A stretch of 22,910 nt of DNA from a virus. Location: positions 1-22,910 of the IMG/VR virus record IMGVR_UViG_3300021138_000188; one strand, 5' to 3'. Below, piece by piece: positions 5,791 to 21,058 of the stretch. The position numbers and the translations under genes are program-made. The notes below the pieces were generated by a model. It had not been told where the DNA came from. It did not search any database and saw only the letters and a list, made by a program, of their open reading frames with translations. The number at the start of each line of letters is the position of its first letter. The first letter of the stretch is position 1.

Positions 5791-6011
5791 GCCGCGCCCT
5801 CCTCGCCGGGAAAAGGCCGTCGGCCGACCGTGATCAAGTTCCACAGCTTGTCGGCGGTCTCGTCATCAGCCCAGATCAGAAAGCCTGCCGGGTTGTCTCG
5901 GAAATCGCGCCAGCGCGGATCGTCCGCCGCCATGATCCCAGCCGCGACAAGCGGGTCAAAGTCGATGCAGTGAAGGCGGCGAACCGCCTCCTGAAATGCC
6001 AGGCGCTTCAT
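5787..6011 (-). CDS. hypothetical protein, 74 aa
   Basis: This small acidic protein overlaps the Bet gene by ATGA at its start and the next gene by ATGA at its end. Trp and Phe residues in RWRDFRDNPAGFLIWADDE suggest a folded globular core. It has no cysteines, no membrane segment and no family I recognise. The overlaps on both sides support it as a real gene. It may cooperate with the annealing protein encoded just upstream. Confidence 0.6.
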   Translation of the reverse strand: MKRLAFQEAVRRLHCIDFDPLVAAGIMAADDPRWRDFRDNPAGFLIWADDETADKLWNLITVGRRPFPGEEGAA

Positions 6012-7006
6012 GCTGCCGCTTCCTCTTCCTTGGCCAGCGCCTCGCGCCGGGCTTCGATCAGCGATTTGATGTGGAGGGCGTCGGCCTTCGCGTGGCCCCA
6101 GAACTCCCGCATGGGCTGGGTGTTAACGCTCTCGAACCACGCCAGCTTTGCCGTCGAGCCGATCCGGTTCACTTCAGCCTCGAGGCGGTCATGCACCTGG
6201 CCGAGCGGAATGCGTTCGAGGGGCTCATGCGGGTCGAACTGCATGATTAGGTGAACCCCAGCCCCGATCCTGCCCATCCGGTCCTCGACCGCCGCGGCCT
6301 CGACCATCTCGCTGGCGGTCATCGCATCGACCTGCATCCGGTCAAGCTCGCCTTCGCCGTACAGGCCTGACAGGTCTTCGGGGAAGGCCCGACGAAGTGC
6401 TTGGGCCTCAGCAGTTTTCTGTAACATCACGCGGGGCATCCGGCCCCAGTTGCCGGATTTGTCCAAGGTTCGGACCACTTCGCCGCGAGGCACCTTGCGC
6501 CTTTTTGGTTTGCCGCTGTCGGGCCAGACTTCGCCCGTATCAATCCAATCGAACCCGTCCGCGCCCTCTTCCTTGATCGGAGCAAATTCTTCCCAGTAGG
6601 CCACGCCCGTGACCTTCCGCCACTCGCCACTCGGCGAAAGGGTGAAAAGACGGACGACGGCGCGCTCAAGGCCAAGCGGATTGTGCGGGCCCTTCAGTTC
6701 GTCGGCGTAATAGAACTCCGTCTCTTCCTCGTCCGGGCGGTAACGACCCGACCTAAAGGCGATGGAACGCAAGCCGTCGATGGTGGCAAAGATCGCGCAC
6801 TGGCGCCGCGCAGGATCATCCTTGTTAAACACAAGGCAGCAAATCTGCTTCGTCAGCGGGTTGAGGCCGCGATGTTTGGCGATGGAAATAAACAGGTCGA
6901 ACTCCGCGTCGAGTGTGTCCTTCGCCACCGTGCGCTTGATCAGTGACAGCTGGGACGGGCTGAAGGCGGCGCTGGGCTGCGTGGTCATGAGGCTCGACAT
7001 GGTCAT
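6008..7006 (-). CDS. bet: phage recombination protein Bet (RecT/Red-beta superfamily annealase)
   Basis: This 332-residue single-strand annealing protein starts at ATG 7006 in an ATGA overlap with the Gp157-like gene. The N-terminal two-thirds follow the Bet family pattern: an opening QLSLIKRTVAKDTLDAEFDL, then FISIAKHRGLNPLTKQICCL, an IFATIDGLRSIAFRSGRY core, and later VMLQKTAEAQALRRAFPEDL. These segments correspond to the DNA-binding annealase fold of lambda Red beta. The C-terminal 100 residues are helical and more variable. Such proteins coat single strands and pair complementary DNA during phage recombination and concatemer formation. No lambda-type or YqaJ exonuclease partner is recognisable in this window, so it may work with a host exonuclease or alone. 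Confidence 0.9.
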   Translation of the reverse strand: MTMSSLMTTQPSAAFSPSQLSLIKRTVAKDTLDAEFDLFISIAKHRGLNPLTKQICCLVFNKDDPARRQCAIFATIDGLRSIAFRSGRYRPDEEETEFYYADELKGPHNPLGLERAVVRLFTLSPSGEWRKVTGVAYWEEFAPIKEEGADGFDWIDTGEVWPDSGKPKRRKVPRGEVVRTLDKSGNWGRMPRVMLQKTAEAQALRRAFPEDLSGLYGEGELDRMQVDAMTASEMVEAAAVEDRMGRIGAGVHLIMQFDPHEPLERIPLGQVHDRLEAEVNRIGSTAKLAWFESVNTQPMREFWGHAKADALHIKSLIEARREALAKEEEAAA

Positions 7007-11959: not shown

Positions 11960-12153
11960 CCGCCCAGCCCAGCCTCTTCGACGGCCCGACCCAGACCATA
12001 TGGCGCAAGCCTGGCCTGGGCGAGTTCCCGTGCACCGTCTGCGGATCCGCCGCCTGCTTCTGCGAGGCCCAGCCCATGCGGCCGGTGCCCGTCTGGTACT
12101 GCCGCCGGCACGTCCCGGCCGACTTCCTGCCGAAGGGTCGCATCAATGGTTAA
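11956..12153 (+). CDS. small zinc-finger-like protein, 65 aa
   Basis: ATG 11956 overlaps the preceding stop as ATGA. After a polar N-terminus (TAQPSLFDGPTQTIW) comes a compact Cys-rich core: CTVCGSAACFCE, then WYCRRH. The Cys-x2-Cys, Cys-x-Cys and Cys-x2-His spacing is suitable for one or two zinc ions. It may be a small nucleic-acid-binding adaptor of the replication region. Its end overlaps the DUF1376 gene by eight bases. Confidence 0.7.
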   Translation: MTAQPSLFDGPTQTIWRKPGLGEFPCTVCGSAACFCEAQPMRPVPVWYCRRHVPADFLPKGRING

Positions 12154-12808
12154 GCGCGCCGAGGAGTGGTTCCCGCTCTACCCCAGCCACTACCACCGGG
12201 ACACGACCGAGCTGACCACGGAGCAGCACGGGGCCTATCTGCTCCTCCTGATGGCCTGCTGGGGGAAGGGCGGCCGTCTGCCCAATGACGACGCCCGGCT
12301 GGCCGCCCTCGCCAAGCTGACGCTTCCCGCCTGGCGCAGACATGCTGCGGTGATCCGCGAGTTTTTCCAGGAGGACGGCGACACGCTGACCCACAAGCGG
12401 GTGACCTTCGAATATGAGAAGGCCCAGGAGATGTCGCGTCGGGCCCAGGCGAACGGCGCGAAAGGCGGTCGTCCGAGAAAGCTAGACGGAACCCAGAAAA
12501 AACCCAGGGCTTTCGCCGGGGATAACCTAGACGAAACACCACCACCACCACCGGATAGGGTTAAGAGCCCTTCAGGCTCTTTAACCCCTATCCAGGGCAG
12601 ATTTTCCAATTTGGAATTTAGGGAAGAAGCGCTCGACCGCATGGGCCCCGAATGGGTCGCGAGCTACGTCGATCCCGCCGAATGGCAGGACGTTCCCGAG
12701 AAGCTCATCATCGCCCGCAACGGGACAGCCGCGGATCGCATCCGGCGCGAGCTGTTCCCGCTCCTGCGCGGCATCAAGGTCATCTCAGCCCAGGAGCGCG
12801 CAGCGTGA
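12146..12808 (+). CDS. DUF1376 (YdaU-like) phage replication protein
   Basis: This 220-residue protein starts at ATG 12146 with AAGGG eight bases upstream. The first 110 residues match the DUF1376 pattern closely: EEWFPLYPSHYHRDTTELT, EQHGAYLLLLMACWGKGG, LPNDDARLAALAKL and the closing ANGAKGGRPRK. A Pro-rich linker (TPPPPPDRVKSP) follows, then a different C-terminal domain with GPEWVASYVDPAEWQDVP. This order, an N-terminal winged-helix-like domain, flexible linker and C-terminal partner domain, resembles phage initiators such as lambda O. The gene lies next to a DnaA domain IV protein. The linker DNA contains a very strong hairpin that may mark the replication origin. Confidence 0.8.
   Translation: MVKRAEEWFPLYPSHYHRDTTELTTEQHGAYLLLLMACWGKGGRLPNDDARLAALAKLTLPAWRRHAAVIREFFQEDGDTLTHKRVTFEYEKAQEMSRRAQANGAKGGRPRKLDGTQKKPRAFAGDNLDETPPPPPDRVKSPSGSLTPIQGRFSNLEFREEALDRMGPEWVASYVDPAEWQDVPEKLIIARNGTAADRIRRELFPLLRGIKVISAQERAA
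12553..12593 (+). other. long stem-loop inside the DUF1376 linker
   Basis: GGATAGGGTTAAGAGCC at 12553-12569 pairs with GGCTCTTTAACCCCTATCC at 12575-12593 around the loop CTTCA. The 17-pair stem is broken only by two single-base bulges. A second palindrome, TTCCAATTTGGAA, lies just downstream in the same AT-richer stretch. Both fall in the region coding for a variable linker. It could be a replication origin element, as in lambda gene O, or an RNA hairpin affecting transcription or translation. Confidence 0.7.
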
Positions 12809-14447: not shown

Positions 14448-14882
14448 ATGTCCGAAGACGCCCCCCGCCCGGTTGGCCGTCCCTCGTCCTACGATCCGAA
14501 GTTCTGCGACATGGTCGTCGAGGACATGGGCCAAGGTTACAGCCTGACCGCCTTTGCCGGTTTGATCGGCGTGAACCGCAGCACGATCACCGAATGGATG
14601 AACGCCCACCCTGAATTTTCCGCAGCCGTTACGCGCGGAAAGGCGGCGAGGCTTCGAAACTGGGAACAGGTCGCCCTGTCGATGCGGATGAACGGCGGGG
14701 GCCCTGGCGGTGCGACGATCACCGTCTTCGGCCTGAAGAACATGGGCGGCGACGAGTGGAGCGACACCCAGCGCCATGAGGTGACCGGCAAGGACGGCGC
14801 GCCGCTGAAGGCGGAAACGGTCGTCACCCTGTCCGACGAAGACCTCGCCAAGACCGTCGAGGCCTTGAAAGCCGCCTTCTGA
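14448..14882 (+). CDS. terminase small subunit
   Basis: The start at 14448 has GGAG six bases upstream and gives a 144-residue protein; an upstream extension to 14280 is a low-quality translation of intergenic DNA. The N-terminal part has a PRPVGRPSSYDPKFCDMVVE lead and a helix-turn-helix (YSLTAFAGLIGVNRSTITEW), the DNA-recognition module of small terminases. A helical oligomerisation region and a C-terminal acidic helix (TLSDEDLAKTVEALKAAF) follow; the latter probably contacts the large subunit. Its stop overlaps the start of the large terminase as TGATG, consistent with coupled translation and a joint role in DNA packaging. Confidence 0.88.
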   Translation: MSEDAPRPVGRPSSYDPKFCDMVVEDMGQGYSLTAFAGLIGVNRSTITEWMNAHPEFSAAVTRGKAARLRNWEQVALSMRMNGGGPGGATITVFGLKNMGGDEWSDTQRHEVTGKDGAPLKAETVVTLSDEDLAKTVEALKAAF

Positions 14883-16294
14883 TGGCGGTTGATCCGATTG
14901 TGGCCGACGCCATCCGGCGAGACGCCTACACCTTCGCCCGGTGGATGTTCCGCAAGCGCACCGGGTCGGCCTGGGCCCAGTCGCCGCATCACGATCTGAT
15001 CTGCGACAAGCTGATGGCCGTCTTCCGGGGAGAGGTCACCCGGCTCGTCATCAACATCCCGCCGCGCTACTCGAAGACCGAGCTGGCAGTGGTCAACTGG
15101 ATTGCCTGGTGCCTGGGCCGAGTGCCCGACGCCGAGTTCATCCATACGAGCTACAGCGCCACGCTGGCGGCGAACAATTCGGCCAACGTGCTTCGGCTCA
15201 TCGAGCATGAGGCCTATCAGGAAATCTTCCCGGCGACCCAGCTCGACCGCACCGCCCGGCAGCACTGGACGACCACCGAGGGCGGCGTCCTCTACACGGC
15301 AGGCTCTGGCGGCACGATCACCGGCTTCGGCGCGGGCAAGCAACGCCCGGGCTTCGGCGGCGCTATCATCATCGACGACCCGCACAAGGCCGATGAGGCC
15401 CGGTCTGACGTGGTCCGCAAGTCGGTCATCGACTGGTATCAGAACACCCTTCAAAGCCGGATCAATAGCCGCCACACGCCGATCATCGTCATCATGCAGC
15501 GCCTGCACGAAGACGACCTGGCCGGATGGCTGCTGAAAGGCGGCACGGGCGAGAAGTGGGACAGCCTGGTGCTTCCGGCCATCACCGCCGAAGGTGCGGC
15601 GCTCTGGCCCGACAAGCACACGCTCGACGAGCTGCGCCGGATGGAACAGGCCGCGCCCTACGTTTTCGCCGGGCAGTACATGCAGAACCCGGCGCCGCTC
15701 GACGGCGGCATCTTCAAGCCGAACCAGATCGAGACCATCGACGCCATCCCGGCCGGCCAGATCACCTGGGTGCGGGGATGGGACCTGGCTGCGACCCAGG
15801 ACGGTGACTACACCGCTGGCGCGAAGCTGGGAAAGACCTCCGACGGTCGGTTCATCATCGCGGACATGCTGCGCGAGCGGATGGGCCCCGATGAGCGGGA
15901 TGCCGCGATCCGAAACGTGGCGAGCCGGGACGGCAAGTCTGTTCGCATCTCGATCCCGCAGGATCCGGGGCAGGCGGGCAAGACCCTCGCTCTTCACCAC
16001 ACGCGGATGCTCGCTGGCTACACGATCCACACGTCGCCCGAGACCGGCGACAAGGTGACCCGTGCCGAGCCGTTCGCCAGCCAGGTCAACATCGGCAACT
16101 GCATGATGGTCCGCGGACCTTGGAACGATGCGCTCCTGAACGAGATGCGGATGTTCCCGAACGGAAGCCACGACGACCAGATCGACGCGCTCAGTCGGGC
16201 CGCTTCATCGCTGCTCGAGGGCGTCCCCTATTCGGGCCTCTTCGAGTTCTACCGCCAGCGGGCCGACGAATTGAAAGCGAAGACCAATGGCTAA
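14882..16294 (+). CDS. terL: terminase large subunit
   Basis: This 470-residue packaging motor has an N-terminal ATPase with a variant Walker A, PPRYSKTE (residues 60-67), and Walker B AIIIDD (161-166), followed by a QRLHEDD coupling region. The C-terminal RNase-H-like nuclease shows GWDLAAT (Asp301), a QDPGQAGK motif (Asp361) and SHDDQIDAL (Asp431-Asp432), the expected acidic metal ligands. The length and motif order fit the family of phage terminases with the YSKTE-type P-loop. It is coupled to the small subunit upstream and overlaps the portal gene by eight bases. It translocates DNA through the portal and cuts concatemers. Confidence 0.97.
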   Translation: MAVDPIVADAIRRDAYTFARWMFRKRTGSAWAQSPHHDLICDKLMAVFRGEVTRLVINIPPRYSKTELAVVNWIAWCLGRVPDAEFIHTSYSATLAANNSANVLRLIEHEAYQEIFPATQLDRTARQHWTTTEGGVLYTAGSGGTITGFGAGKQRPGFGGAIIIDDPHKADEARSDVVRKSVIDWYQNTLQSRINSRHTPIIVIMQRLHEDDLAGWLLKGGTGEKWDSLVLPAITAEGAALWPDKHTLDELRRMEQAAPYVFAGQYMQNPAPLDGGIFKPNQIETIDAIPAGQITWVRGWDLAATQDGDYTAGAKLGKTSDGRFIIADMLRERMGPDERDAAIRNVASRDGKSVRISIPQDPGQAGKTLALHHTRMLAGYTIHTSPETGDKVTRAEPFASQVNIGNCMMVRGPWNDALLNEMRMFPNGSHDDQIDALSRAASSLLEGVPYSGLFEFYRQRADELKAKTNG

Positions 16295-17789
16295 CCCCGT
16301 CAAGACACCGCTGCCGCCGGGGCTTGTCGCCCGTCTGGTGTCTGGTGTCCGGTATGTGGTGACAGGCGCATCCGACGCCTGGATGGGACCGAACCAACCG
16401 CTGCCGCCGACGGCCGACAGCCCTTCGGACGAAACCCGAGGCCGTGCCTTCGACTATCGTGTCGGGATCAACCTCGACACGGTGCCGAAGACGCCCGAGG
16501 CGGGGATTTCCTACGACCTCTTGCGTGGCCTCGCTGACGGCTATGACCTGGTCCGGCTCTGCATCGAGACCCGGAAGGACCAGATCAGCGCCCAAGAATG
16601 GCAGTTCAAGATCAAGGGCGACGACAAGGCGACCGACCCGCGCCTCGATGACCTGATGGCCTTCTTCCAGTCCCCCGACCGGATGAACTCCTTCGACATC
16701 TGGTGCCGTCTGCTGCTCGAGGAGATGCTCGTCATCGACGCGGCGACGGTCTATCCGCGCATGACGCGCGGAGGGCAACCGTTCGCGTTCGAGCCTCTCG
16801 ACGGCTCGACGATCAAGCGGGTGATAGACGGCTATGGCCGCACACCCATGCCGCCGGAACCGGCCTATCAGCAGATCCTGAAAGGTCTGCCGGCCGTGGA
16901 CTACACGCTCGACGAGCTGATCTACCGACCGCGCAATCCGCGCGTCTACAAGCTCTATGGCTTCTCGCCGGTCGAGCAGATCGTGACGACGGTCAACATC
17001 GCGCTTCGTCGCCAGATCACCCAGCTCGACTACTACACCAACGGCAACGTCCCAAACGCCCTGGTGGCGGCCCCCGAGGCCTGGACGCCCGACATGATCT
17101 CCCAGTTTCAGGACTGGTGGGACAGCATCACGACGCAGGAGACCAAGCAGCGGGCGCGCTTCATTCCCGGCGGAATGTCGTTCATCGACACCAAGCAGGC
17201 GGCAATGGGGCCCAGCGACCAGGTCGTGAACGAATGGCTGGCCCGGGTGGTCTGCTTCGCCTTCAACATCAGCCCGACGCAGCTCGTGTCGATGAACAAC
17301 CGGGCGACCTCAGACAGCCAGAAGGAACAGGCCGAGGACGAAGGCCTCAAGCCGACGAAGCGCTGGCTGAAGCAGCTCATCGACGAGATCGTGGTCCGCT
17401 ATTTCGGCCACACCGACATCGAGTTCCAGTGGGTGACCGAGAAGGAGCTGGACGGCCTGAAGGCCGCTCAGATCAACCAGATCTACCTGCAGGAGGGCGT
17501 TCTCACGCCGGACGAGGTCCGCACCGATCTCGGCCTCGACCCGCTCACGCCGGAACAGAAAGACGACCTGCTGGCTGCAAAGCCGCAGCCGCTTCCCCCT
17601 CCGACGCCCGCACCGCAACCGACCGCTCCGAACGGAGCATCGCCGGGCGAGAAGGAAAAGTCCGAGACGATCCACATCCACATGCCGGAAATCAAGACCG
17701 GCGACACCCTGGTGGAAGTCGGCTCGACGGTGGTGAAGTTCGAAAATGCAGACGGCTCGGTGCGCGAACTGCGCGATGACCGAGCGTAA
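16287..17789 (+). CDS. portal protein (HK97-type)
   Basis: This 500-residue protein forms the dodecameric head vertex through which DNA enters. The sequence has typical portal blocks: DGYDLVRLCIETRKDQISAQ early, DIWCRLLLEEMLVIDAATVY, then YRPRNPRVYKLYGFSPVEQI, and later NEWLARVVCFAFNISPTQLV with QAEDEGLKPTKRWL. The C-terminus is Pro-rich and probably flexible, ending in HIHMPEIKTGDTLVEVGS, which may extend into the head interior. It overlaps the terminase by eight bases and the head morphogenesis gene by 14 bases, the standard order of head genes. Confidence 0.95.
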   Translation: MANPVKTPLPPGLVARLVSGVRYVVTGASDAWMGPNQPLPPTADSPSDETRGRAFDYRVGINLDTVPKTPEAGISYDLLRGLADGYDLVRLCIETRKDQISAQEWQFKIKGDDKATDPRLDDLMAFFQSPDRMNSFDIWCRLLLEEMLVIDAATVYPRMTRGGQPFAFEPLDGSTIKRVIDGYGRTPMPPEPAYQQILKGLPAVDYTLDELIYRPRNPRVYKLYGFSPVEQIVTTVNIALRRQITQLDYYTNGNVPNALVAAPEAWTPDMISQFQDWWDSITTQETKQRARFIPGGMSFIDTKQAAMGPSDQVVNEWLARVVCFAFNISPTQLVSMNNRATSDSQKEQAEDEGLKPTKRWLKQLIDEIVVRYFGHTDIEFQWVTEKELDGLKAAQINQIYLQEGVLTPDEVRTDLGLDPLTPEQKDDLLAAKPQPLPPPTPAPQPTAPNGASPGEKEKSETIHIHMPEIKTGDTLVEVGSTVVKFENADGSVRELRDDRA

Positions 17790-19491
17790 GCCCTATCCGC
17801 CTCAGACAGAGGACGGTTACCACACTGCTCGTCCCTTCATCGTCCGCAACCGCATCGGCATGAAGCGGGCCGTGCGCAGCTTCTTCGCTCGCCAGATCAA
17901 GCCGGTGACGGACAGCCTCGGGCGCGCTCTGGGACTGGCCAAGGCAGACGGATCGGACCCGAAGGAACGGGCGCGCCAGGCCGTCGACCAGGTCGAAATC
18001 GACTGGGCCCCCCTCGCTGACCAGGTCGAACCGTTTCTGGTCTCGGTCGCCGTCTCGGGCGCATCCGCTGGGCTGAAAAGCCTCGACATCCAGTTCGCCG
18101 ACAACATGTGGAACGGCGTCGGGACGGACGCGACGGAATGGGCCGCGAACCGCGCCGCCGAGCTGGTCGGTATGCGACTGGTCGATGGCAAGTGGGTGCC
18201 GAACCCGAATGCGAAATGGCAGATCGGAGACACGACCCGCGACATGGTCCGCTCACTAGTGACCGACGCCATTGAGCAGGGCGACAGTTCAGACAACCTC
18301 GCTGACCGCCTCGCGGCCATTCAGAACAAGCTGAAGAACGGCTTCGTCTTCAGCGATGAGCGCGCCGACATGATCGCGCGTACCGAGATCGCCCGGGCAG
18401 ACGTTCAAGGTGCTCTGATCGGCTGGCAGAAGTCCGGCGTGGTGATCGGCAAGCGGTGGCTCGCCGGAGGGCCCCGCGTCTGTCCGGTCTGCCTTGCACA
18501 TGAAGCCGAGGGCCCGAAAAAGCTCGACTACACCTGGGGCGACGGCGTGACCGCGCCTCCCGACCATCCGCACTGCCTACCGGGAAACAGCCGCATACTG
18601 GCCACGGGAATTTCTGCCACTAGTGAGCGCTGGTATGATGGTGATCTCATCATCGTCAACACTTCCAGCGGCAAGCGTCTCGCCTGCACCCCTAATCACC
18701 CGGTACTCACGCCGGATGGCTGGGTCTCGGCGCGCTTGCTCAATGAAGGAGGCCACGTAGTCGGCTGTCGCGTCGGTCAATGGGAACCTGGCCTCAGTCT
18801 TCACAACGAGGATGTGCCAGCCTGCATCGAGGATGTGGCGAAAGCGTTCAGCCGTTCGGAGGATGTGGCGTCCCGACCAATGCCAACCGCCCCCGAACAC
18901 TTCCACGGCGACGGGGAAGGCTCCCAGATCGCAATTATACGGGCCGATGGCTTCCTGCGAAATGGTCCCGATGCCTCGTTCGGCCAGCCTCCGCTGGAGT
19001 TCCAGTTCAATGGCGGAAATGTGCAGCTTTCGCGCCATCACCGTCCTAGCTCGCTTGGTCTTAGCCTCCAGGCTGTCCTTGCTTCCGCGCTTGGCCGTGT
19101 AGGCGGCCACAGCCTGCTTTGCCCGAATGTCTGGGGGGGCGGCCGCCCACCTTACAGCTTGAGCAGCCTTGAGGTTTCGACGCTCGACGCCGCGCTCATT
19201 GAGAACGCGCGTGATGACGACACGCGAAACGCCGAATTTCTGCGCGACGGCAAACTCGCTCATGCCGCCGACATAATCGGCCACGGCACCATCCTCATCA
19301 AAGATGATGCGCCGCTTCAACTGAACCCGTTTTTTCTCGACCGTATTGTTTCTGTCCACAACGAACCCTTCTCTGGAAAAGTCTACAATCTGCAGACGGA
19401 CGTGGGCTTTTATATCGCAGAGGGCGTTGTGACACACAACTGTTTCTGCTGCCTGGTCGCAGTTCTCGAAGGGGAACCCGTGAATGAATAA
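17776..19491 (+). CDS. phage head morphogenesis protein (SPP1 gp7/Mu gpF-like) interrupted by an intein
   Basis: The precursor is 571 residues, starting at ATG 17776. Residues 1-266 and 556-571 form the extein, a 282-residue minor head protein after splicing. ADMIARTEIARADVQGALIG, then VCPVCLAHEAEG and PPDHPHC joined to FCC, is the gp7-family C-terminal motif with a likely metal site. Residues 267-555 are an intein inserted exactly between His266 and Cys556 in the conserved HPxC motif. Without splicing the motif would be destroyed, so splicing is presumably needed for head assembly. The gene overlaps the portal by 14 bases and the protease gene by eight bases. Confidence 0.92.
   Translation: MTERKPYPPQTEDGYHTARPFIVRNRIGMKRAVRSFFARQIKPVTDSLGRALGLAKADGSDPKERARQAVDQVEIDWAPLADQVEPFLVSVAVSGASAGLKSLDIQFADNMWNGVGTDATEWAANRAAELVGMRLVDGKWVPNPNAKWQIGDTTRDMVRSLVTDAIEQGDSSDNLADRLAAIQNKLKNGFVFSDERADMIARTEIARADVQGALIGWQKSGVVIGKRWLAGGPRVCPVCLAHEAEGPKKLDYTWGDGVTAPPDHPHCLPGNSRILATGISATSERWYDGDLIIVNTSSGKRLACTPNHPVLTPDGWVSARLLNEGGHVVGCRVGQWEPGLSLHNEDVPACIEDVAKAFSRSEDVASRPMPTAPEHFHGDGEGSQIAIIRADGFLRNGPDASFGQPPLEFQFNGGNVQLSRHHRPSSLGLSLQAVLASALGRVGGHSLLCPNVWGGGRPPYSLSSLEVSTLDAALIENARDDDTRNAEFLRDGKLAHAADIIGHGTILIKDDAPLQLNPFFLDRIVSVHNEPFSGKVYNLQTDVGFYIAEGVVTHNCFCCLVAVLEGEPVNE
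18574..19440 (+). mobile_element. intein in the head morphogenesis gene
   Basis: This 289-residue Hint-type element begins with Cys1 (CLPGNSRILATG, block A) and carries the block B motif CTPNHPVLTPDGW with Thr39 and His42. It ends with block F (FSGKVYNLQTDVGFYIAEG) and block G VVTHN, followed by Cys+1. All splicing residues are present: Cys1, Thr and His of block B, the penultimate His, the terminal Asn and Cys+1. It should therefore splice. The middle, roughly residues 60-260, has no LAGLIDADG or HNH motif in the sense frame. A homing-nuclease-like gene runs on the opposite strand across it. Confidence 0.92.
18577..19359 (-). CDS. antisense homing endonuclease nested in the intein (HTH plus Vsr/EDxHD-like)
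   Basis: This 260-residue protein is read from GTG 19359, which has AGAAGG about seven bases upstream; the frame stays open to 19575, so the start is not certain. Residues 18-60 form a helix-turn-helix (DYVGGMSEFAVAQKFGVSRV, then VITRVLNERGV). A basic linker follows. Residues 113-190 look like a Vsr/PD-(D/E)XK-type nuclease: Glu118, IGPYNCDLG (Asp144), VAVEVFGGGWHW (Glu153, His160), His165, then an ERFRHILDAGWHILVV strand-helix ending. That residue set fits the EDxHD homing endonucleases, a group first linked to inteins. The C-terminal part is antisense to intein block B. The gene is entirely inside the intein, and its TAG stop is the complement of intein codon 2 (CTA). Activity is inferred, not shown. 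Confidence 0.8.
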   Translation of the reverse strand: MDRNNTVEKKRVQLKRRIIFDEDGAVADYVGGMSEFAVAQKFGVSRVVITRVLNERGVERRNLKAAQAVRWAAAPPDIRAKQAVAAYTAKRGSKDSLEAKTKRARTVMARKLHISAIELELQRRLAERGIGTISQEAIGPYNCDLGAFPVAVEVFGGGWHWSGRHILRTAERFRHILDAGWHILVVKTEARFPLTDATADYVASFIEQARRDPAIRREYRVIRGAGETLAAGSVDDDEITIIPALTSGRNSRGQYAAVSR

Positions 19492-21058
19492 GCGTTTCTT
19501 CGCCGAGTTCGCCAAGACCGAAGAGCAGGACGACGGCACGATCAAGGTCTGGGGCATCGCCTCGACCCCGAACACCGACGCCGACGGCGAGCGCGTGACG
19601 GCCGATGCAATGGCGACCGCTCTGCCCGACTACATGAAGTTCGGCGCGGTGCGCGAAATGCACCAGCCAAAGGCTGCCGGCACGGCTGTCGAAGCCGAGG
19701 TGGACGCCAACGGCGTAACCCAGTTCTGCGCCCATATCGTGGACGCCGAGGCCGTCAAGAAAGTCCAGGCCAAGGTCTACAAGGGCTTCAGCATCGGCGG
19801 GAAGGTGCTGGCGCGAGACGAGAACGATCCCGACACGATCACATCCATCAAGCTGGTCGAGGTTTCCCTCGTGGACCGACCCGCAAACCCGGAGGCAATC
19901 CTCACGATGTTCAAAGCTGAAGACGCCGCCCCCGATGCGGCCGCGGCCGAAACGGGGGATGCGATCTCCCAGCTGGTCGATCTGGTGAAGTCCGCCGAAC
20001 TCCCCGCCAGCGAAATGGTCCGGGTGCTAACCGACGCCATCGCCAAGGCCAAGGGCGATGCCCAGTCGATGGCCGTCGATCCGGCCGAGGCCGAGAAGGC
20101 CCCGGACATCGAAGAGAAGGCCGAGGACTGCGACGACGAGGACGACGAAAAGGACCACGCTGACGAAGAGGACGACAAGGACATGGCCGACACCGGCAAG
20201 TCCGCCTCCGTCGATGAGACCCTCGTCGGCATCGATGTGATCGTCCGCGCCGCCCAGGCGCAGGGCCTGAAGAAGGGACTGCGCGGCCTGAACGCCCTGT
20301 CGGCCGCCATCTACCAGCTCGTCGCCGTGCAGGCTGGCGTGAAGCGCGAGCAGGAAGAGGAAGGCGACAATTCGCCCGTTCCCGGCCAGATCGAGGACGC
20401 GATCAAGGACCTCCTGGAGACCCTCGTCCAGATGGCGCAGGAAGAGACCGGCGAACTCGTCGATGACCTCGATCAAGCCGGGATGGAAAGCGCCGTCCCC
20501 GAATATGGTAGCTACAGCCTGCAGTGCGCCGACAAGGTGCTGACGCTGGCCAAGCGCAACTACAGCAGCAAGCAGCGCCAGGCGATGGCCTCCAACGGCG
20601 AGGCGATGTCCGACGGCTCGTTCCCCATCAAGAACAAGACCGACCTGGAGAACGCCATCCGCGCCTACGGCCGCGCCAAGGACAAGCCGAAGGCGAAGGC
20701 TCACATCATCGCCCGGGCCAAGGCGCTTGGCCTGTCCGCCCTCATTCCCGACGACTGGAAGTCCAGCGACAAGGCAGAAGGATCATCCGACTTGGGCAAG
20801 TCCCACCTGTCGGAAGCCCTGGCCAAGCTGGGCCGGATGGAAGTCGAAAACGCCGCTCTCGCCAAGCGTGTGAAGGAACTCGAAGACATGCCCGCGCCGC
20901 CGAAAGGCCCGCTGCTGTCGGTGACCAAGGCCCAGGACATCAACAAGAGCGACACCGACGCCGCGGATGCCCCGCCGCCGGGACTGTCGCCGGAACAGTT
21001 GGCGCTCTGGAACATGAAGAAGGTTCACTCCGGCGGCGGCCAGATCATCCGCTTCTGA
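19484..21058 (+). CDS. prohead protease fused to a scaffold-like region (DUF6582 at the C-terminal part)
   Basis: This 524-residue protein starts at ATG 19484 and overlaps the previous gene by eight bases. Residues 1-145 resemble an HK97-type head maturation protease: VWGIASTPNTDADGERVTAD, then His60 in AVREMHQ, Ser103 in YKGFSIGGKV and LVEVSLVDRPANPE, consistent with a His-Ser-acid catalytic set. A long, very acidic middle (EDCDDEDDEKDHADEEDD) and a helical region likely act as internal scaffold. Near residues 380-430, FPIKNKTDLENAIRAYGRAK is a DUF6582-type segment, followed by a coiled coil and a Pro-rich end. It sits just before the major capsid gene, which it would help assemble and then cleave. 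Confidence 0.85.
   Translation: MNKRFFAEFAKTEEQDDGTIKVWGIASTPNTDADGERVTADAMATALPDYMKFGAVREMHQPKAAGTAVEAEVDANGVTQFCAHIVDAEAVKKVQAKVYKGFSIGGKVLARDENDPDTITSIKLVEVSLVDRPANPEAILTMFKAEDAAPDAAAAETGDAISQLVDLVKSAELPASEMVRVLTDAIAKAKGDAQSMAVDPAEAEKAPDIEEKAEDCDDEDDEKDHADEEDDKDMADTGKSASVDETLVGIDVIVRAAQAQGLKKGLRGLNALSAAIYQLVAVQAGVKREQEEEGDNSPVPGQIEDAIKDLLETLVQMAQEETGELVDDLDQAGMESAVPEYGSYSLQCADKVLTLAKRNYSSKQRQAMASNGEAMSDGSFPIKNKTDLENAIRAYGRAKDKPKAKAHIIARAKALGLSALIPDDWKSSDKAEGSSDLGKSHLSEALAKLGRMEVENAALAKRVKELEDMPAPPKGPLLSVTKAQDINKSDTDAADAPPPGLSPEQLALWNMKKVHSGGGQIIRF

Follow-up and report, generated by a model that had tools for sequence, protein, structure and literature searches.

Inteins and Homing Endonucleases

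In canonical mobile inteins, a Hint splicing domain and an in-frame LAGLIDADG or HNH homing endonuclease share one polypeptide; EDxHD endonuclease genes also lie between the halves of split inteins. The known EDxHD (Vsr-like) homing endonucleases of phages are intron-encoded or free-standing (PMC3943268). Nuclear group I introns may carry their homing endonuclease genes in antisense orientation, I-DsqI being an example (PMC9548176), and an out-of-frame HNH insertion lacking a splicing domain has been described in a phage methylase (ShiLan; PMC11855218). Passages of the papers on Snoke (PMC6776784), the UPWr phages of Salmonella (PMC8425127) and vKMB36 (PMC11162368) report an intein in the MuF/head-morphogenesis protein.

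The locus considered here lies in a 22.9-kb virus record of IMG/VR (IMGVR_UViG_3300021138_000188, positions 1 to 22,910, hereafter the window), where an intein interrupts the gene of a minor head protein. Most probably (at a rough probability of 0.88), the intein is mobile and has as its homing endonuclease a separate protein, whose gene occupies the opposite strand of the same DNA. The features involved, with the strand of the head protein gene designated as + (sense), are as follows:

17746..19491, +, host gene of a Mu-F/SPP1 gp7-like minor head (capsid morphogenesis) protein, harboring the intein in frame (PF04233 and PHROG matches)
18574..19440, +, intein of 289 residues, from Cys1 to HN, followed by Cys+1 at 19441-19443 (PF14890, invariant residues, Foldseek)
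18574..18771, +, Hint-N half of the splicing domain, with block A and, at 18688-18702, block B (TPNHP), opposite the nuclease C-terminal tail and dual-coding (predicted local distance difference test, pLDDT, 94-97; sense- and antisense-synonymous changes both suppressed)
18901..19320, +, middle of the intein as read in the sense frame, beginning with FHGDG at 18901-18915, a predicted, mostly unstructured read-through spacer mirroring the nuclease gene (pLDDT <50, antisense-type divergence)
19321..19440, +, Hint-C half of the splicing domain, SGKVYNLQT ... VVTHN (pLDDT 94-97; TIGR01443 intein_Cterm)
18577..19359, −, predicted antisense homing-endonuclease gene of 260 codons plus TAG, with a GTG start, entirely within the intein (open reading frame, conservation, model)
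19366..19372, −, Shine-Dalgarno (SD)-like AGAAGGG, lying 6 nt ahead of the GTG start (sequence; relatives)
19195..19296, −, predicted helix-turn-helix (HTH) of the nuclease, residues 22-55 (model helices 22-30, 35-42 and 46-55; Pfam HTH in relatives)
18865..19008, −, predicted active-site residues E118 (19006-19008), D144 (18928-18930), E153 (18901-18903), H160 (18880-18882) and H165 (18865-18867) (conserved columns, fold match to 3r3p and 1vsr)
18580..18759, −, nuclease C-terminal tail, residues 201-260, complementary to Hint-N (model strands 218-223, 227-233, 245-249 and 255-259; first and third codon positions diverging about equally, with a low second)
18577..18579, −, TAG stop of the nuclease, the complement of the intein Leu2 codon CTA (codon choice in relatives)

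The Sense-Strand Intein

The sense open reading frame (ORF) of 581 residues, located directly downstream of the terminase and portal genes, belongs to the Phage_Mu_F family (PF04233, E 2.2e-6; phrog_15127, phrog_2662 and phrog_115) and carries the intein at the HPx/C motif of the Mu-F/SPP1-gp7 head protein (the slash marks the junction). The original prediction of a complete Hint-type intein on this strand is borne out by a match to PF14890 (E 7.8e-8), by the splicing residues and by the fold: all top Foldseek matches of the model are inteins. Cys1 is encoded at 18574, Asn289 ends at 19440 and the HN/C junction occupies 19435-19443; C1, N41-H42-P43, N289 and C290 are invariant among the relatives, and T39 and H288 nearly so. 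Thus, the splicing blocks of a class 1 intein (Cys1, TxxH, His-Asn, Cys+1) are all present together with the Hint fold and, unlike in a split intein with its two ORFs, both Hint halves sit in one contiguous sense ORF.

The Hint halves are modeled confidently (pLDDT 94-97), and residues 132-159 and 173-229 fall below 50. As also foreseen, the middle of the sense product harbors no recognizable nuclease: family searches with this product gave no nuclease family, and neither these searches nor the model revealed an endonuclease domain fused to Hint.

The Antisense Nuclease

The antisense frame was confirmed at exactly the coordinates initially proposed, from GTG at 19359 to TAG at 18577-18579. 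The two strands are read codon on codon, so sense position p1 is opposite antisense p3, and p2 is opposite p2. The minus-strand product would be a nuclease of the HTH plus Vsr/EDxHD fold. Its AlphaFold2 model reaches a mean pLDDT of 92.9, the C-terminal tail being structured; the best fold for it in the PDB is the homing endonuclease I-Bth0305I (3r3p; Foldseek probability 1.00, E 1.7e-3), followed by Vsr (1vsr; probability 0.99). The nuclease homology named in the original prediction as a check was thereby found, along with significant HTH domains and weak profile matches to 3r3p and 3hrl. The antisense relatives match HTH families with E of 1e-6 to 2e-10 and, weakly, the nucleases MTES_1575 and DUF559; a search of NCBIfam with the nuclease returned no match. 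The DNA-binding modules, represented by these HTH matches and by the HTH helices of the window model, are separate from the nuclease core.

All five residues proposed for the active site are in place: E118, D144 and E153 are invariant among 72 nuclease homologues, and H160 and H165 are retained in at least 90%. The initial description as an HTH plus Vsr/EDxHD-like nuclease holds for the HTH domains and for the I-Bth0305I/Vsr folds, but the predicted active site reads E-D-E-H and would depart from the strict textbook EDxHD. E153 resembles the DUF559/MTES_1575 pattern; matches to those families are weak.

Conservation of Both Open Frames

Of the annotated phage records, 124 gave a tblastn match to the sense intein and 123 to the antisense protein, mostly at the same loci, and a scan of IMG/VR returned at least 486 relatives of the nuclease. 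The nuclease lies antisense within the intein, with both frames open, in 103 of 103 fetched loci spanning a GC content of 0.38-0.71; these loci were gathered by nuclease similarity and do not represent an unbiased sample. Among loci gathered by the head-protein extein alone, the three distinct intein-bearing ones all possess the nuclease, and the rest are without it. Both frames are also open in a Helicobacter prophage (34% GC), Aaphi23 (42%) and a Vibrio phage (45%). Extein codon use predicts about 4 sense and 6 antisense stops per locus, rising in AT-rich loci to about 7-22 per frame (up to 16 sense and 22 antisense).

Since long antisense ORFs are frequent in the GC-rich window, openness of the antisense frame alone proves nothing. 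A 544-residue antisense ORF opposite the terminase gene (14537-16171, −), probably a mechanical product of GC content, makes ORF length as such no evidence in the window. However, the retention of the frame (103/103 loci) and of its active-site residues (72 sequences) in homologues agrees with what was originally expected, and because the two-in-one arrangement is conserved in more than 100 sampled phages, it can be regarded as a real, very compact selfish element.

Certain loci deserve separate mention. In the Helicobacter prophage (L163, BK070147), the overlap of antisense nuclease and intein is extreme, both frames staying open over some 300 codons at 34% GC. In L123, the MuF insert begins with HPNAVLGG, with an apparent Ala in place of Cys at intein position 1, and retains the antisense nuclease match; judging from the sequence, the insert could belong to another splicing class or not splice at all. 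The sense ORFs of L005 and L026 exceed 1,000 residues, with a portal-like N-terminal part in L005, which suggests a fusion of portal and head protein with the intein.

Spread of the Element and a Free-Standing Relative

The head gene was found in 497 phage records. In 70 of them, the match extends over 80% or more of the intein-bearing query; almost all the others sampled match the extein only. In Guernseyvirinae, the insertion is located in frame exactly at HPN/C, with empty alleles in fFiEco03, AG11 and SenTO17. Snoke (Kagunavirus) and sidste (Jerseyvirus) share 95.8% nucleotide identity in the intein vs. 74.6% in the extein, the Snoke extein is 91.2% identical to that of the intein-less fFiEco03, and the STP-1 extein is 92.7% identical to that of the intein-less SenTO17. 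This contrast and the similar empty alleles indicate that the element moves from phage to phage. Its sole nuclease candidate is the antisense protein, which would presumably perform the cutting.

In Acinetobacter phage P1068, the head gene is intein-less, and a nuclease relative of 297 residues lies convergently beside it; the former sense frame opposite this nuclease is full of stops, which shows that this frame stays open solely where splicing requires it. In the nuclease tree (STP-1 being disregarded), P1068 is nested, on a long branch, among intein-embedded nucleases, which suggests an escape from the intein; such an origin is likely, as far as the tree of these sequences can tell. Among annotated phages, free-standing homologues are confined to the P1068 group (three records): in P1068 (L104:2501-4164), the nuclease overlaps the stop of the intein-less head gene, and an identical nuclease is present in IME285 and BUCT629. 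An Alicyclobacillus match was rejected as a free-standing homologue, since it merely shares the HTH, on apparently another nuclease type.

The P1068 case lends some weight to a view of the nuclease as real and selected, yet serving something other than homing into empty MuF alleles, e.g., marker exclusion against rival phages or regulation, with the intein as its shelter. Free-standing phage homing-type nucleases, such as those of the T4 seg genes, can act on neighboring genes. Still, the gene almost always lies inside the intein, lineages that are otherwise empty have acquired the intein, and the element has no other nuclease, which makes this view unlikely.

Selection on Each Strand

Codon-level selection, another check named at the outset, acts on the antisense frame. 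In 12 pairs of relatives, divergence at sense positions p1/p2/p3 was.353/.295/.559 upstream, in the exteins, and.234/.194/.450 downstream of the nuclease; it was.255/.057/.206 in Hint-N,.381/.129/.216 in the intein middle and.472/.189/.321 in the HTH part. Hence, the most variable position inside the nuclease is sense p1 (antisense p3), reverting outside it; the same flip to the antisense pattern was seen again in Guernseyvirinae and along the gene in 48 pairs. Sense-synonymous codon differences amounted to 52% in the N-extein, fell to 19% in Hint-N and stood at 32% in the end of Hint-C that lies beyond the nuclease, and antisense-synonymous ones amounted to 38% in the middle and 20% in Hint-N; three Guernseyvirinae pairs, whose intein bounds were not found, are absent from this test but present in the codon-position counts. 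In view of both tests, the middle is chiefly nuclease-coding, and the stretch shared by Hint-N and the nuclease tail is constrained in both frames. The sense middle is essentially unconstrained beyond staying open, with disorder predicted by the model, and true dual coding is confined mainly to the overlap of Hint-N with the nuclease tail.

These results leave little room for a functional insert (an unknown in-frame endonuclease) in the sense middle, with the antisense nuclease as a minor second product. The alignment of the intein over 99% of its length at about 30% identity in phages and the conserved FHGDG could be cited in favor of such an insert, but the middle is 58% identical in the sense frame vs. 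74% in the antisense one, and FHGDG, as originally noted, faces the active site of the nuclease, being the complement of its PVAVE stretch. An in-frame nuclease was rejected given the lack of a family match and the disordered model, and this alternative is very improbable. Least credible of all is a mirror artefact, with the sense intein as the sole gene, whose conservation would, in this register and at high GC, make an antisense ORF look conserved as well: the p2:p2 register, the frequent long antisense ORFs of the GC-rich window and the tblastn matches of both frames in largely the same records would accommodate it, but it was rejected by the codon-position and synonymous tests (the most variable middle position being antisense p3) and is at odds with the pLDDT (below 50 in the sense middle vs. 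93 antisense), with the HTH (E down to 2e-10) and nuclease-fold matches of the antisense products and with the nuclease retained in P1068 after loss of the sense frame.

Gene Signals and Length Classes

In 54 of 78 distinct loci, the nuclease stop faces intein Leu2 as its complement. Leu2 is encoded by CTA or TTA in 54 of 59 distinct loci, two codons that make up 10.9% of those used for Leu in exteins. The start is the complement of the His in GHVYN in 40 of 69 loci; this His codon is CAT in 34 of the 40, against a background of 44%. The Leu of NLET is encoded by CTC, which yields GAGG upstream of the nuclease start, in 43 of 66 cases (background 24%), and 50 of 69 relatives have an SD-like motif ahead of the position where the nuclease starts. 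By these counts, the choice of start, SD and stop codons is biased as the putative antisense gene requires.

Intein lengths cluster near 270, 320 and 370 residues, and the antisense proteins of the longer inteins carry extra HTH matches. In L068, L082 and L005 compared with L006, intein length varies with the number of HTH units of the antisense nuclease, in increments of about 50 residues.

Proposed Mechanism

Translation of the head protein would take in the intein, and its excision by the Hint halves would follow, as the conserved splicing residues and the model suggest, with the middle of the sense product serving as a presumably disordered spacer. An antisense transcript would be translated from the start complementary to Hint-C codons, giving an HTH plus Vsr/EDxHD-fold nuclease that ends at the complement of intein residue 2; selection establishes the gene itself. 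The nuclease would then cut intein-less alleles at the conserved HPx/C motif of the head gene, and repair would copy the entire intein with both genes, in line with its horizontal spread. The HTH units probably set target recognition, and their number would set intein length in the steps of about 50 residues (270, 320, 370).

Certain points weigh against this scheme. The Foldseek E-value for the nuclease fold is just 1.7e-3, and the profile match of the catalytic domain to known nucleases (3r3p, 3hrl) is weak (E 0.005-0.01). The window gene starts with GTG, whereas many relatives have ATG. A minus-strand promoter scan upstream of the nuclease start gave none convincing in the window or in Snoke: the sole site in the window lies inside the nuclease gene, and the Snoke minus strand has none. 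The codon tests use related pairs, which are not fully independent events, so their P-values are indicative only.

It is also rather probable, if less so than the mobile intein itself, that the element represents an undescribed, widespread class of mobile inteins with splicing and homing on opposite strands, with the nuclease start, ribosome-binding site and stop accommodated in Hint-C and first-residue codons, with Hint-N and the nuclease tail co-constrained and with the nuclease expressed from an antisense transcript independently of the late head gene.

The window also encodes an integrase (1304-2413, −), a RecT-like annealing protein (6008-7006, −), a primosomal-type protein (12146-12808, +) and a head maturation protease (19484-21058, +), and by these genes resembles a temperate phage that brings its own recombination function.

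Comparison with Known Systems

The intein itself is already known, and no report of its antisense nuclease was found in the literature searched; the coverage excludes the 2025 preprint on non-canonical inteins of actinophages (10.1101/2025.01.02.630785) and Gorbalenya 1998, leaving priority unsettled. The preprint may overlap with the present findings, since Gordonia phages are among the carriers. The antisense location explains why such inteins looked nuclease-less, or like unrecognized inserts, in annotated phages. The relatives from a single IMG/VR scan form a large natural set of overlapping antisense genes, predicted to be catalytic and partly dual-constrained, and hence rare material for studying two proteins that share the same bases; intein-plus and intein-less Guernseyvirinae pairs exist for Salmonella and E. 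coli.

The Guernseyvirinae MuF inteins (Snoke, UPWr, vKMB36) are elements of the same kind, and the passages cited do not mention an antisense nuclease. With canonical mobile inteins, the element shares the Hint splicing residues, insertion at a conserved motif and spread between exteins, but its spliced polypeptide is devoid of a nuclease domain, the nuclease being a separate antisense gene. I-Bth0305I and other EDxHD enzymes resemble it in the best fold, the E...D...E catalytic order and the combination of a DNA-binding module with a Vsr-like core; here, however, the gene is antisense within a contiguous intein, with HTH repeats at the N-terminus. Introns of the I-DsqI type likewise carry the homing gene on the strand complementary to the host transcript of the mobile element, but the intron strand need not code for protein, whereas here both strands do, under partly dual constraint. 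Similarly, the ShiLan element has a homing nuclease in another frame of an in-frame, stop-free insertion with a disordered in-frame product; the present nuclease is antisense, has a Vsr/EDxHD fold and resides in a Hint intein with splicing residues. The pairing of an intein with a homing nuclease, known as an in-frame fusion or with the nuclease gene lying between split halves, appears here in what seems to be a third form.
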